This document shows, in pieces, positions 21,087 through 57,761 of a stretch of DNA of 64,000 bases. Every line of letters begins with the position of its first letter. Within the stretch, counting starts at the first letter, position 1. Both the position numbers and the translations under genes were made by a program. The DNA comes from Allobosea sp. TND4EK4 (lineage in GTDB: Bacteria; Pseudomonadota; Alphaproteobacteria; Rhizobiales; Beijerinckiaceae): the NCBI RefSeq assembly GCF_900156025.1, contig NZ_FTMO01000007.1, positions 124,001 through 188,000 on the forward strand. The letters run 5' to 3'. The notes below the pieces were generated by a model. That model had not been told where the DNA came from. It did not search any database and saw only the letters and a list, made by a program, of their open reading frames with translations.

Positions 21087-21578
21087 CTAGCGAGGCGCTG
21101 CCCCGCTGGCCATGGCATTGCGGCTGGAGGCCTGCGCCCCGGCCTCGCTGAAATATTTCTGCGAGTCGCCGAGCTGGACCGAAGGCTGGCACTGGGGCGT
21201 GCAGGAATAGCTTTCGCGTTCCATGCCCCGCTGGACGGTCAGCACCGCATCGCCGTCGGGACTCACGCGCACGAGCGATTCCGCCAGAAGGGTTCCGGTG
21301 GCGTCGAGCGCGATCAAGTTGGTCACGCCGTAGCTCTTGCCCGTCACGATCATCACGCCGTTGCGCTGCACCGTCACATCGGCGATAGCCGGGTTGCCGA
21401 CCACGACGGTCTGTGCCTGCGCCGGCAGGCGGATGACCTTGGCATGATCCACAAGCACGACGACGCTCTCGAGCGGCGCGGCGACAGCCGGACCAGCCGC
21501 GAGCAGCACGGAAACGATGGCGGCAGACAGGTAGGATCTGGCTGGACGGGACCCTTCTGCGGTCCGGACAGTGTCCAT
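21087..21578 (-). CDS. Secretin N-domain only protein (CpaC-like, pilus assembly)
   Basis: 163 residues starting at MDTVRTAEGS; a signal peptide ends near AVAA (~37). The next ~80 residues resemble the N-terminal pilus_BMP domain of CpaC: VIRLPAQAQTVVVGNPAIADV, then GKSYGVTNLIALDATG. The secretin pore domain is absent. The C-terminal part has two close Cys (SCTPQCQPS). Such stand-alone N-domains occur beside tad loci in Alphaproteobacteria and may sit at the periplasmic entrance of the secretin. It is divergent from flp across a 412-bp regulatory region and upstream of the TadE-like pair on the same strand. Confidence 0.8.
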   Translation of the reverse strand: MDTVRTAEGSRPARSYLSAAIVSVLLAAGPAVAAPLESVVVLVDHAKVIRLPAQAQTVVVGNPAIADVTVQRNGVMIVTGKSYGVTNLIALDATGTLLAESLVRVSPDGDAVLTVQRGMERESYSCTPQCQPSVQLGDSQKYFSEAGAQASSRNAMASGAAPR

Positions 21579-21990
21579 GGCGGCGCCTCGAAGCTTGTGA
21601 CCCGGCGATCCAAGCGCAAAATGATGAATCAAACGCTAAACCGGCCCGGACTCAGGACCTGAAAGGACCCGGCGGATGATCTCGTAACGGAAGACATCAG
21701 GGCTATGATTGACCAACTCGCCTGATCGCTGCCGGTTCTCTGAAATTCTCCGAAACTATTCCTGCAATTTTAACCAATCAATTCGCAGTATTTACTAGAT
21801 ATCGAGGAATTATATCGGATAAATACATATCAATCCCGCGTTAACCACAGACGAAAGCGCTTCGAGATTCCGCGAATTCTTCTCATCGTTTAACGGTTCA
21901 GCAAGAGGCGCTCGCTAAGTTCGTTCCTGTCGCTGACCGAAGCCGATCCAGAGCGAAGGCAGCCGTCAAACCGTGGCAAGGAGTTTCATC
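21579..21990. promoter_or_regulatory. AT-rich divergent control region between the CpaC-N gene and flp
   Basis: A 412-bp gap with no supported gene. Bases ~21720-21900 are far richer in A and T than the rest of the window, as at strong promoters. TTAAC half-sites of the kind bound by CtrA appear at 21770, 21841 and 21890, and a GANTC site (GATTC) at 21866. None of the three forms a full TTAA-N7-TTAA box. No precise -35/-10 pair could be chosen with confidence. Confidence 0.5.
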
Positions 21991-23674: not shown

Positions 23675-25113
23675 GCAGATCCGGCATCCTCCTCGCAGCG
23701 GCGGCGCTCCTTCCGCTGCTCCCGCTCCCCGCCCAAGCGCAATCCGCCGGCCCTGCGCCGGTGCTCAACGTCGGCACCAGCGACTATGCGATATCGCGCA
23801 AGCTCGACCTTTCGATCGGGCGTTCGCTGGTGGTCGAACTGCCGCGTGACGCCAAGGAGGTCTTCGTCGCGAACCCGAAGGTCGCCAACGCGGTCGTCCG
23901 CACGGCGCGCAAGCTCTTCATCATCGGCATCGCCGACGGCGCGACCTCGATGTTCGTGATGGACGCCGAAGGCCGCCAGATCACCGCGCTCGAAATCAAT
24001 GTCGGGCGCGATCTGAACGTCCTGCGCCAGACGCTGCGCACGGCGCTGCCGAACTCCCAGATCGAGATCAAGCCGGCGGGCGAGTCGATCCTGCTGATCG
24101 GCACCGTGCCGAACGCCTCGGAAGCGACCCAGGCCGTCGATATCGCCAATGCCTTCGTCGGCGTCTCCGACAAGACCAGCGCCAAGGGCTCGGTGATCAA
24201 CTCCCTGACGATCAGGGACCGCGACCAGGTGATGGTGAAGGTCGTCATCTCCGAGGTTCAGCGCAAGGCGATCAAGCAGCTCGGCATCAACTCGACCGGC
24301 GAATGGAAGCTCGGCAAGTTCTCGATCACCCCCTCGATCGACAATCCGCTGCCCCTGCAGCCGCAGGCCCTGTCCGCCACCGCGATCGGCGCCGGCATCG
24401 GCAACTCCCAGAACTTCACGCTGCGCGCGCTCGAGCGGGCGGGCCTGGCGCGCGTCCTCGCCGAGCCGACCGTGACGGCGATCTCGGGCGAAACGGCGAA
24501 GTTCACCGCAGGCGGCGAGATTCCGGTTCCGAAGGGGCAGACCTGCTCCTATGACACGTTCGGGCGCCAGACGTGCCAGGTCCAGCTCGAATACAAGCCC
24601 ATCGGCGTGACGCTGAATTTCACCCCGATCGTTCTGTCCGACGCCAAGATCAGCATGCGCATCGCGACCGAGGTGACGGAACTCGATTTCGAGAACCAGT
24701 TCCGCCTCAGCGACAACTCACAGGCCGGCCTCAACACACCCGCCTTCCGGGTGCGCAAATCCGATACGACGGTCGAACTGCCCTCGGGCGGCACGCTGGC
24801 AACTGCGGGGCTGATCCAGCGTGTCTCGAAGAGCTCGCTCAACGGCCTGCCCGGGCTGATGAACCTGCCGATCATCGGCACGCTGTTCCGCTCGCGCGAC
24901 TATCAGCGCGAGGAAACCGAATTGATGATCACCGCGACCCCCTACATCGCCAAGCCGATGGCGCCGAGCCAGGTGCAACGCCCGGATGACGGATTCGTCG
25001 AATCGCATGATTCGCAGGCGATCCTGCTCGGCCGCCTCAACAAGATCTACGGCAGCGGCAGCGGTCCGGTTCCCCAGGCCTATAAGGGCCGCGTCGGCTT
25101 CATCGCGGATTGA
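23671..25113 (+). CDS. cpaC: Outer-membrane secretin CpaC/RcpA
   Basis: 480 residues. A signal peptide ends at AQAQ (~24). The N-terminal pilus_BMP-like domain (RSLVVELPRDAKEVFVANPK) is followed by a BON-like ring domain (~105-165) and the secretin pore from ~190: RVLAEPTVTAISGETAKF and VGVTL-like strand (IGVTLNFTPIVL) and GLIQRVSKSSLNGLPGL. CpaC forms the outer-membrane pore through which the Tad pilus passes. It ends with a free tail after the LFRSRDYQREETELMI secretin signature. It is the full-length version of the 163-residue fragment protein at 21087-21578. Confidence 0.96.
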   Translation: MSRSGILLAAAALLPLLPLPAQAQSAGPAPVLNVGTSDYAISRKLDLSIGRSLVVELPRDAKEVFVANPKVANAVVRTARKLFIIGIADGATSMFVMDAEGRQITALEINVGRDLNVLRQTLRTALPNSQIEIKPAGESILLIGTVPNASEATQAVDIANAFVGVSDKTSAKGSVINSLTIRDRDQVMVKVVISEVQRKAIKQLGINSTGEWKLGKFSITPSIDNPLPLQPQALSATAIGAGIGNSQNFTLRALERAGLARVLAEPTVTAISGETAKFTAGGEIPVPKGQTCSYDTFGRQTCQVQLEYKPIGVTLNFTPIVLSDAKISMRIATEVTELDFENQFRLSDNSQAGLNTPAFRVRKSDTTVELPSGGTLATAGLIQRVSKSSLNGLPGLMNLPIIGTLFRSRDYQREETELMITATPYIAKPMAPSQVQRPDDGFVESHDSQAILLGRLNKIYGSGSGPVPQAYKGRVGFIAD

Positions 25114-55434: not shown

Positions 55435-56655
55435 TTACTCGGCCGCCGGCCGCTTCAGGCCGGCCTCGACGGCGCTCGCGGCGGCGTCGAGCCGCTTGAC
55501 CGCCTCGGCCACATCGGCGTCCGAAATGATCAGCGGCGGCAGCAGGCGCACGACATTGTCGCCCGCGCCGACGACAAGGATGCCGTGGGCACGCGCCTCA
55601 TTGACGAATTCGGTGTTGAGCGTGCGCAGCTTGAGGCCAAGCATCAGGCCTTCGCCGCGGATCTCCTCGATCACCTGCGGATGCTTGTCCTTCAGCTCGG
55701 CCAGCGACTGCTTGAGCCTGAGCGCGACCTGTCGGACATGGTCGATGAAGGCCGGCTCCAGCACGACGTCGAGCACGGCGTTGCCGACCGCCATGGCCAG
55801 CGGATTGCCGCCGAAAGTGGTGCCATGGGTGCCGAGCGTCATGCCGGAGGCCGCTTCCTCGGTCGCCAGGCAGGCGCCCATCGGGAAACCGCCGCCGATG
55901 CCCTTGGCGATCGACATGATGTCGGGCGTCACGCCGTAATGCTCATGGGCGAAGAACTTGCCGGTCCGGCCGACACCGGTCTGGATCTCATCGAAGATCA
56001 GCAGGAGGCCGTGCTCGTCGCACAGCTCACGCAGGAGCTTGAGGAAACGGCCCGGAACGGTGCGCAGGCCGCCCTCACCCTGGATCGGCTCGATCATCAG
56101 CGCCGCGGTCTCGGGCGTGATGGCCGCGCGCAGCGCCTTCTCGTCGTCGAAGGGCACCTGATCGAAGCCGTCGACCTTGGGGCCGAAGCCGTCAATGTAT
56201 TTCTGCTGGCCCCCGGCGGCGATGGTCGCGAGCGTGCGGCCGTGGAAGGCGCCTTCGAAGGTGATGATGTGGTAGCGCTCGGGATGACCCTTCGCGGCAT
56301 GGTATTTCCGCGCCATCTTGATGGCGCACTCATTGGCCTCGGCCCCCGAATTGGTGAAGAACACCCGTTCGGCGAAAGTAGCCTCGCAGAGACGGCGCGC
56401 CAGGCGCTCGCCATCCGGCGCGCCATAGAGGTTCGAGGTGTGCCAGATCTTGCCGGCCTGCTCGGTCAGCGTCTTGACCAGATGCGGATGGGCATGGCCA
56501 AGCGCGTTGACGGCGATGCCGGCGCCGAAATCGAGATAGCGGGTACCATCGGCAGTGATGGCCCAAGGGCCTTCGCCGCGCTCGAACGCGACGGGGGCGC
56601 GGGCATAGGTCGGCAGGAGAACGGATGGGGAAGCAGAAACGGAAGCGGAGGCCAT
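55435..56655 (-). CDS. argD: Acetylornithine aminotransferase
   Basis: 406 residues, class III PLP aminotransferase. [17 protein letters not shown] (~105) and [21 protein letters not shown] (~215) hold the cofactor residues; the Lys is near [14 protein letters not shown] (~243). It converts N-acetylglutamate semialdehyde to N-acetylornithine, and often also acts on succinyl-diaminopimelate. It is first in the operon argD-argF-hslO. A 7-bp stem hairpin followed by a T-run on the minus strand lies about 100 bp upstream (56758-56776). Confidence 0.97.
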
Positions 56656-56883
56656 GACGTCAGATCCTCGCGAGGGGACGGGTGAGACCGGATGGGCGCT
56701 GGGGTCGAAAACGCGATCCGGGTGTGATGCTGCAGCCTGCAGCCAAAAAACGACCCGGCGACGACGTTATCGTCGCAGCCCTTTGCCGACCTCTCGTCGC
56801 GCCGTCATCCGCATCGTCAAGCCCTGACTCGGGAGCGATCCCGTTCCACAAAACATAAGCGCCGCCCCAACGGGCGGCGACCT

Positions 56884-56892
56884 TGTGGATAA
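56884..56892 (-). promoter_or_regulatory. Perfect DnaA box upstream of gcrA
   Basis: The top strand reads TGTGGATAA, the exact complement of the consensus DnaA 9-mer TTATCCACA. It lies about 320 bp before gcrA. DnaA activates gcrA transcription in Caulobacter, so this is a plausible activator site; binding is inferred. Confidence 0.6.
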
Positions 56893-57014
56893 ATATGCTG
56901 AATGCCGTCCGCCCTGTCAATGACGCCGCCGGCACACCCGGCTCCGGCGAGGTGTTGCCGAAAAGATTCTCTTGCCCGCGCAATCGGCACTCGGCTGGGG
57001 AAAAGATGTTTTCT

Positions 57015-57040
57015 GATTCGGCGACTCTTGTCCGGGAGTC
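57015..57040. promoter_or_regulatory. Triple CcrM (GANTC) cluster upstream of gcrA
   Basis: GATTC at 57015, GACTC at 57023 and GAGTC at 57036 lie within 26 bp; a fourth (56965) and a fifth (57153) flank them. In GC-rich DNA GANTC should occur about once per 300 bp, so three in 26 bp is unlikely by chance. GcrA binds methylated GANTC promoters, so autoregulation is possible. Confidence 0.6.
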
Positions 57041-57212
57041 ACTGCCCCTTGTATGGTCGCCCTCGTCAGATACGACATTTCGTGCGGCGTCCCCAGTCCA
57101 GCCTGTTGCGACAGCAACGGTTTTTGCCCTCATGGCAGAAGCCGCGACTTTGGATTCCAAGCGAAGCACCCTCACGGGCGACTTCCTCCGAAGCCGCCCC
57201 GACAGACAGGTG

Positions 57213-57761
57213 ATGCGGATGAACGAAGCCGGAGCATGGACGGACGAGCGGGTCGAACTGCTCAAGAAGCTCTGGAGCGACGGTCTGAGCGCGAGCCAGA
57301 TCGCGGCCGAGCTCGGAAGCGTCACGCGTAACGCTGTGATCGGCAAGGTGCACCGGCTCGGCCTCTCGGGCCGTGCGAAGAGCGCCGCGGCGCCGGCGGC
57401 CCCGCGCAACGCAGCGCCGCGCAAGCAGCCTCCTCGCGCGCCGAGCCATCCGATGGCGGCGCCAGCCCAGACCCGCGGCGCCAACGCGCTGGCACCCGAT
57501 TTCGAGGCCGAGCCCGAAACGGACGTGCGCGCCGTGCCCCAGGTCTCCGAGGATGTGGTGATCCCGTTCTCCGAGCGCGTCACCATCATGGACCTGCGCG
57601 AATACATGTGCCGCTGGCCGATGGGCGACCCCACCACCGCGGAGTTCCGCTTCTGCGGAGCGCGCTCGCAGACCGGCCTGCCCTATTGCACCCACCACGC
57701 CCGCATCGCCTACCAGCCGGCTGCCGACCGCCGCCGCGACCGGAGCAAGGCGCGGGCCTGA
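57213..57761 (+). CDS. gcrA: Cell cycle regulator GcrA
   Basis: 182 residues from MRMNEAGAWTDERVELL; a second ATG two codons on is possible. The N-terminal helix-turn-helix (WTDERVELLKKLWSDGLSASQIAAELG) binds DNA near methylated GANTC sites with sigma-70. A long Ala/Pro linker (~60-115) joins it to a C-terminal domain with clustered Cys and His (EYMCRWPMGDP, FCGARS, YCTHHARIAY), which contacts RNA polymerase. It activates genes of DNA replication, division and polarity. Its own upstream region has GANTC sites and a DnaA box. Confidence 0.96.
   Translation: MRMNEAGAWTDERVELLKKLWSDGLSASQIAAELGSVTRNAVIGKVHRLGLSGRAKSAAAPAAPRNAAPRKQPPRAPSHPMAAPAQTRGANALAPDFEAEPETDVRAVPQVSEDVVIPFSERVTIMDLREYMCRWPMGDPTTAEFRFCGARSQTGLPYCTHHARIAYQPAADRRRDRSKARA

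Follow-up and report, generated by a model that had tools for sequence, protein, structure and literature searches.

The window, by which we mean the whole 64-kb stretch of DNA that was analyzed, carries the gene of the cell-cycle regulator GcrA beside a divergently oriented argD gene. It comes from a Bosea-like genome, the nearest named gcrA loci being from Bosea.

55435..56655, minus strand: argD, divergent from gcrA
57213..57761, plus strand: gcrA coding region, assigned by translation, with its start ATG at 57213 or 57219

The two genes adjoin each other in 27/27 Bosea loci, and gcrA gave a single match per genome in at least 41 genomes. A scan of the argD-gcrA region against Rfam returned just two matches, both of which were sub-threshold. 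The region was compared across a near-relative set of 110 gcrA loci, composed of 27 “Bosea” loci (L001-L025, L031, and L032, with the locus of the window included; 24 same-genus genomes entered the comparison) and 83 others, among which L074 (Bosea sp. 117) was grouped because its gcrA is just 59% identical. The named gcrA loci are the best 80 of 576 matches and therefore favor near relatives; Bosea and Bradyrhizobium predominate in the near-relative counts, and the relatives are mutually dependent. Wider comparisons used an order-wide sample of 16 genomes from different families, 14 further loci from the same order or family, and 57 loci from other orders (30 families), the last two sets together forming 71 class and order loci. 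The 57 other-order loci stem from the upper part of a match list that covered 155 of 241 genomes, which leaves weak GcrA relatives under-represented.

The first-pass annotation of this DNA had placed six GANTC sites, the target of the methyltransferase CcrM, between argD and gcrA, with three of them inside 26 bp, and all of these are present, the triple spanning 57015-57040. Together with the core promoter that we predict around them, they are as follows.

56826..56830: GANTC, lacking an equivalent in all 26 other Bosea loci
56965..56969: GANTC, kept in 23/27 Bosea loci
57015..57019: GANTC, first of the triple, upstream of the predicted -35
57023..57027: core GANTC abutting the predicted -35, first half of the conserved 13-bp pair
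57028..57033, plus strand: predicted -35, TTGTCC
57036..57040: core GANTC in the spacer, second half of the conserved 13-bp pair
57052..57057, plus strand: predicted -10, TATGGT
about 57064, plus strand: predicted gcrA transcription start, placed from the -10
57153..57157: leader GANTC at about +90, kept in 26/27 Bosea loci

The background assumed in that annotation, about one GANTC per 300 bp, was too high, as the window holds 102 sites in 64 kb, or one per 627 bp. Dinucleotide shuffles contained a mean of 332, about 3.3 times as many, which means that GANTC is avoided in the window and that the cluster upstream of gcrA is more unusual than had been supposed. At the window's own rate, the Poisson probability of finding at least six sites in 387 bp is 4e-5, and the 387 bp upstream of gcrA are the densest span of that size in the window. 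Just one other triple within 40 bp occurs in the window, at 24992-25013 (three sites in 22 bp). The conservation in relatives that had been proposed as a check was found for the triple (27/27 Bosea loci) and, to the extents listed above, for the sites at 57153 and 56965, but it failed for that at 56826, which stands alone among the Bosea loci.

The most constant part of the cluster is a pair of GANTC sites 13 bp apart, of the form GACTC-TTG-N5-GAGTC, which flanks the predicted -35 in 27/27 Bosea loci and which was found in 78/110 near-relative loci, compared with 1/110 for a mirrored 13-bp control. Other spacings between 6 and 25 bp were also frequent in the 110 loci (21 bp in 30, 8 bp in 29, and 23 bp in 20), those of 21 bp, which separate the outer sites of the triple, and of 8 bp deriving largely from the Bosea triple. 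In the 78 pair loci, TTG follows the first GANTC in 77, the predicted -10, separated from the -35 by an 18-bp spacer, begins with TA in 78 and ends with T in 75, and the leader carries a GANTC between +75 and +112 in 76; the positions of the -10 and of the start were picked after the alignments had been viewed. The pair is kept in near relatives and is patchy in the wider order, as it appears in 3/16 order-wide genomes (L028, L030, and L216), 1/3 further family members (L152), 2/14 further same-order or same-family loci, and 1/57 other-order loci (L201). Nine pairless near relatives retain one GANTC in the spacer (L026, L027, L029, L064, L065, L074, L084, L088, and L091). Three loci (L034, L043, and L079) keep the -35- and -10-like words with no GANTC in the upstream stretch searched and thus provide a natural comparison. 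In eight Methylobacterium loci (L045, L068, L073, L086, L090, L095, L099, and L107), both the pair and the leader word are absent, and no argD is found in the stretch examined; their genomes encode CcrM. Within the genome of the window, GANTC-N8-GANTC occurs in eight places including gcrA (control, 11), and TTG is found at just one of the other seven (L114, near hpf-like and rpoN-like frames).

CcrM is encoded in the genome of the window, and it was found in 50/50 genomes tested, 28 of which have no GANTC pair at gcrA. Loss of CcrM was considered as the cause of the missing pair in the 32/110 pairless loci and was rejected because the enzyme is present in 28/28 of those tested. In Agrobacterium tumefaciens, the gcrA promoter PG is described as having six GANTC sites within 250 bp before the gene, and methylation lowers its activity in Agrobacterium and also in Escherichia coli expressing CcrM (PMC11514494). 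The proposal that CcrM is wired into the gcrA promoter thus appears well supported by the preserved core geometry, the presence of CcrM, and the analogy with Agrobacterium. The geometry would also offer a physical reason for the methylation effect because methyl groups would lie next to the -35 and within the spacer. The authors of the Agrobacterium study proposed that hemimethylation after passage of the replication fork activates gcrA (PMC11514494), and, given the six sites and the repression by methylation published for that species, our analysis likewise favors release by hemimethylation over autoactivation by GcrA. The likeness is one of description, not of sequence: the gene, the six upstream sites, and the methylation by CcrM agree, and the 13-bp geometry, the NrdR boxes, and the DnaA-like element described below are features of the present locus.

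The accompanying suggestion of GcrA autoregulation, although conceivable, gained no positive support. The extended GcrA motif of Caulobacter is YGAKTCK (PMC8725594), which, as judged by eye, fits the site at 57015 alone of the six, and the core pair does not fit it. A GcrA-activated promoter should carry YGAKTCK within its core, and the one fitting site lies upstream of the -35. In addition, the methylation effect reported for Agrobacterium is seen in E. coli expressing CcrM as well (PMC11514494). The promoters controlled by GcrA and CcrM in Caulobacter, such as ctrA P1, mipZ, and podJ, resemble the present one in having GANTC in or near the core promoter (PMC3667746, PMC4287350), but they differ in that the core pair here is unfit for YGAKTCK and that methylation, to judge from Agrobacterium, would repress. 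In Caulobacter, start sites that have GANTC between the -35 and the -10 are reported to be active at 40-60 min of the cell cycle (PMC4287350), a timing that, as an analogy, does not plainly fit repression by methylation.

The input of DnaA had been assigned to a perfect DnaA box, and that box does exist. The elements that bear on this assignment are the following.

56860..56879, minus strand: GC hairpin followed toward argD by a weak T tail
56884..56892, minus strand: exact DnaA box, TTATCCACA, confined to one Bosea clade
56892..56920, minus strand: argD-facing promoter TTGACA-17-CATATT (one found versus 0.1 expected in shuffles)
56996..57004, minus strand: W-box-like DnaA candidate, TGGGGAAAA on the plus strand, at about -68 to -60, invariant in 27/27 Bosea loci

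The box at 56884-56892 is the single exact copy of TTATCCACA in both the window and the 4.72-Mb assembly (G000), where a mirrored control word occurs 12 times. This suggests that strong DnaA boxes are avoided in the genome and that the one retained is probably not idle. It is, however, not the conserved element upstream of gcrA: the exact box is found in 10/27 Bosea loci, which form one side of a tree branch (support 100/99) and are explained by a single change on the Bosea tree, and in 0/83 non-Bosea near-relative loci, and it lies at the -10 of the argD-facing promoter, some 176 bp away from where gcrA transcription is predicted to begin. The order of this minus-strand promoter and the GC hairpin (56860-56920) would be compatible with a short leader RNA before argD.

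A better candidate for DnaA binding is the W-box-like element at about -65. One of the words TGGGGAAAA, TGTGGA, TGTTGAAA, and TGTGGGAA, a variant set selected after the alignments had been viewed, occurs in 76/78 loci within the 60 bp that precede the GANTC pair, compared with 31/2200 random 60-bp windows. The commonest distance from element to pair is 27 bp, seen for TGGGGAAAA in 39 loci, of which 27 are Bosea; next come 18 bp, in 17 loci that have just TGTGGA, and 38 bp, in four, and single loci have other distances; 18, 27, and 38 bp are roughly one helical turn apart. The weak DnaA W-box of Caulobacter reads TCCCCA (PMC4285127), and the strong box ends in TCCACA. The idea of a DnaA input thus remains plausible through the conserved element at 56996-57004, though not through the box at 56884-56892. 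In other orders, TTNTCCACA lies within 330 bp upstream of gcrA in 28/57 loci from 16/30 families (mirrored control, 1/57), and exact TTATCCACA in 18/57 (control, 0). An excess of TGGGGAAAA was not found there (2/57 versus 1 in the control), and the 14 further same-order or same-family loci gave 0/14 for TTNTCCACA and 1/14 for TGGGGAAAA. Because of these excesses in other orders and the W-box-like element in near relatives, control of gcrA by DnaA is probably widespread, taking a different form near Bosea and no visible form in others. The gcrA promoter of Caulobacter is activated by DnaA and contains one DnaA box (PMC3193534), and in a comparative study of 2010, few species had a DnaA motif at this gene (PMC2877005).

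A further regulator was suspected because the start of the leader, TACGACATYTCGTG (TACGATATCTAGTG in other orders), resembles an NrdR box and a second such word lies over the -10.

57039..57054: putative NrdR box 1, weak (matrix score 0.4), with C57042 and G57051
57070..57085: putative NrdR box 2 (matrix score 9.6), with C57073 and G57082
57082..57089, plus strand: word GTGCGGCG, able to pair with the loop of the small RNA EcpR1 with one G-U in the pairing

NrdR is a sensor of dATP and ATP and a repressor of ribonucleotide reductase genes. It binds a pair of boxes separated by about three helical turns, in which the G-C pairs at 9/18 and 40/49 are conserved (PMC9110341), and the putative boxes upstream of gcrA, which stand in tandem 31 bp apart over the predicted -10 and start site, repeat C-N8-G in a layout that matches the NrdR-DNA structure (PMC9110341). 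Thus, they share with NrdR-repressed reductase promoters the two palindromic boxes, the C and G nine apart, the 31-bp distance, and the position over promoter and start (PMC9110341), and differ from them in that the target is a cell-cycle regulator and box 1 is weak in the genome of the window. For an evaluation free of circularity, a matrix was built without gcrA from 42 boxes of 21 nrdJ-type promoters, namely the 21/40 that scored at least 23 (the best of 120 shuffles scored 22), the nrdJ-type label being given by frame length and profile match alone. Pairs were scored at 31 or 32 bp against the 99th percentile of 765 base-shuffled sequences, 8.8. The gcrA pair of the window has a sum of 10.0 and ranks first in the 64 kb, where the next pair scores 2.6; nearly all of the sum comes from box 2, and box 1 is apparently eroded.

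Because L063 had too little upstream sequence for scoring, 82 of the 83 non-Bosea near relatives were used. Pairs above the 99th percentile were found in 19/27 Bosea loci, 52/82 other near relatives, 47/57 other-order loci, and 5/14 further same-order or same-family loci (52/71 for the last two together), and pairs above the 95th percentile in 27/27, 61/82, and 53/71 class and order loci. Control windows from the same loci, which are mostly coding and hence an easy control, passed in 2/1231 and 6/1231 cases, respectively. Of the 30 other-order families, 26 have one or more loci whose pair exceeds the 99th percentile. All 19 held-out nrdJ-type promoters passed, over 701 bp, a longer stretch than the threshold was set for, and the median pair score was 19.8 for other-order gcrA and 17.9 for these promoters; nrdA-type reductase loci, which had been left out of training, showed a clear pair in 7/30. 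The summed score also exceeds the 99th percentile at wrong spacings, in 1/27 Bosea loci, 9/82 other near relatives, and 24/71 class and order loci at 27/28 bp, in 0/27, 6/82, and 17/71 at 25/26 bp, in 0/27, 0/82, and 11/71 at 35/36 bp, and in 0/27, 2/82, and 8/71 at 38/39 bp. Since such passes arise when one box is strong, both boxes were then required to reach 5. Under this rule, 22/57 other-order loci qualified at 31 bp, 10 at 32 bp, and no more than six at each of the remaining spacings between 17 and 49 bp; non-Bosea near relatives gave 34/82 and 4, with two at most elsewhere, and Bosea gave 5/27 at 31 bp and 0 elsewhere. Even when both boxes had only to reach 3, just 7/27 Bosea loci qualified.

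From the conserved sites, we infer that NrdR binds to the gcrA promoter and represses it in many of these bacteria. NrdR is encoded in the genome of the window, and it was found in 79/80 other genomes searched, a near universality that prevents its presence from being correlated with that of the boxes. The genome contains the 13-mer TACGACATNTCGT just once, which says little on the regulon because NrdR boxes vary. A pair scoring 19.8 precedes nrdA of the same genome, and an upstream pair was not found at its ccrM and nrdR. The nrdA leader (L219, 4322-4534) also contains, beside the box pair, a cobalamin riboswitch (RF00174, 132.8 bits). Control of gcrA by NrdR was not reported in the literature titles and abstract beginnings searched, and gcrA is absent from the main text of a study on regulons in Proteobacteria (PMC5343134). 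The NrdR pair on the gcrA promoter is therefore apparently new.

The leader itself offers another possible role for part of the conserved sequence. In Sinorhizobium meliloti, the gcrA leader is 122 nt long, and EcpR1 pairs with the mRNA 13 nt after the start via UCCGCCGCAUCU (PMC4414408). The word [AG]TGCGGC was found within the first 60 nt of 56/78 leaders, compared with 315/8803 background windows. S. meliloti gcrA resembles the gene of the window in being divergent from argD and in having a long leader with a GC-rich word soon after the start (PMC4414408), but the EcpR1 gene was not found here by its loop word, a weak test that gave 26 matches against 26 for the control and none at a locus with a GGDEF/GGEEF frame. 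EcpR1-type pairing is thus a possibility only, and, since the word and NrdR box 2 share positions, the conservation of the word could be due in part to either. A CtrA motif is situated at the start site of S. meliloti gcrA (PMC3616915). A candidate terminator in the leader (57103-57120) was rejected because its T run is shortened in most of 12 aligned Bosea leaders, and so was a consensus leader fold with 31 pairs, which is weak, with seven double changes and a covariation term of -1.3.

The reading that we prefer, to which we give slightly more credence than doubt, is that gcrA is transcribed from a sigma-70 promoter that fires during replication and receives inputs from CcrM, a DnaA-type element, and NrdR. 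Fully methylated CcrM sites at the -35 edge, in the spacer, and at about +90 would hold the promoter down until passage of the fork leaves them hemimethylated and releases it, and the weak DnaA-type element at about -65 would add an input from initiation. If replication stalls, dATP would rise and NrdR would repress gcrA from the operator over the -10 and start, and the fall of dATP during replication would bring relief. Each of the three inputs would signal ongoing replication, and gcrA would respond to it. The methylation step rests on the Agrobacterium experiments, and those of DnaA and NrdR on conserved sites; what is observed in the present study is that the sites exist, how they are spaced and conserved, and that the genome encodes CcrM and NrdR. 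The patchiness of the GANTC pair and of the NrdR pair in the wider order lowered our confidence in the full scheme. The more general claim that gcrA belongs to the NrdR regulon in much of Alphaproteobacteria, which is based mostly on other orders, seems to us moderately probable.

One alternative is that methylation acts without NrdR, CcrM repressing until the fork passes, and that the NrdR-like palindromes are kept for the leader RNA, a small RNA site, or some other regulator. The Agrobacterium data (PMC11514494), the erosion of box 1 in Bosea, and the overlap of box 2 with the EcpR1-like word would all agree with this, but it does not account for the exact two-box spacing of 31 or 32 bp in other orders and near relatives, detected with a matrix trained without gcrA, and we consider it rather unlikely. 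Alternatively, the NrdR-like words might be just AT-rich promoter sequence or the sites of another dimeric regulator that were caught by a promoter-trained matrix, as the passes of summed scores at wrong spacings would allow. The two-box scan, however, peaks solely at 31 and 32 bp, and the gcrA pairs of other orders score as high as those of held-out nrdJ-type promoters, which makes this explanation improbable.

Two further readings turn on the exact DnaA box. The box might serve argD, with DnaA at the -10 repressing or timing the argD-facing promoter in one Bosea clade. The abutting minus-strand promoter and the single change on the Bosea tree are in favor of this idea, no reason for timing argD is known, and we regard it as tenable while somewhat short of probable. 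The circuit originally proposed, in which DnaA bound at 56884-56892 would switch on gcrA and GcrA would stimulate its own promoter at methylated GANTC, can draw on the uniqueness of the box in the genome, the activation by DnaA of the one-box gcrA promoter of Caulobacter (PMC3193534), and the fit of 57015 to YGAKTCK. Considering that the box is limited to one Bosea clade and lies inside the argD promoter, that the core pair is unfit for YGAKTCK, and that methylation represses in Agrobacterium (PMC11514494), this circuit seems very unlikely.

If the preferred three-input scheme is correct, NrdR on the promoter would let gcrA be transcribed while replication consumes dNTPs, and, in combination with DnaA and GANTC hemimethylation, gcrA would be a three-input detector of ongoing replication. 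A 2025 paper described that high dNTP levels in nonreplicating Caulobacter cells delay S phase (PMC12186491), and control of gcrA by NrdR could explain such delayed entry under excess dNTPs. If gcrA has a conserved NrdR operator, the levels of dNTPs would have a direct and testable route by which to influence entry into the bacterial cell cycle.

Elsewhere in the window, the strongest single NrdR-like box is TTACTAGATATCGAGG at 21792-21807, which scores 14.0 and stands without a good partner box. DnaA words with one mismatch are found near it at 21445 and 21841.
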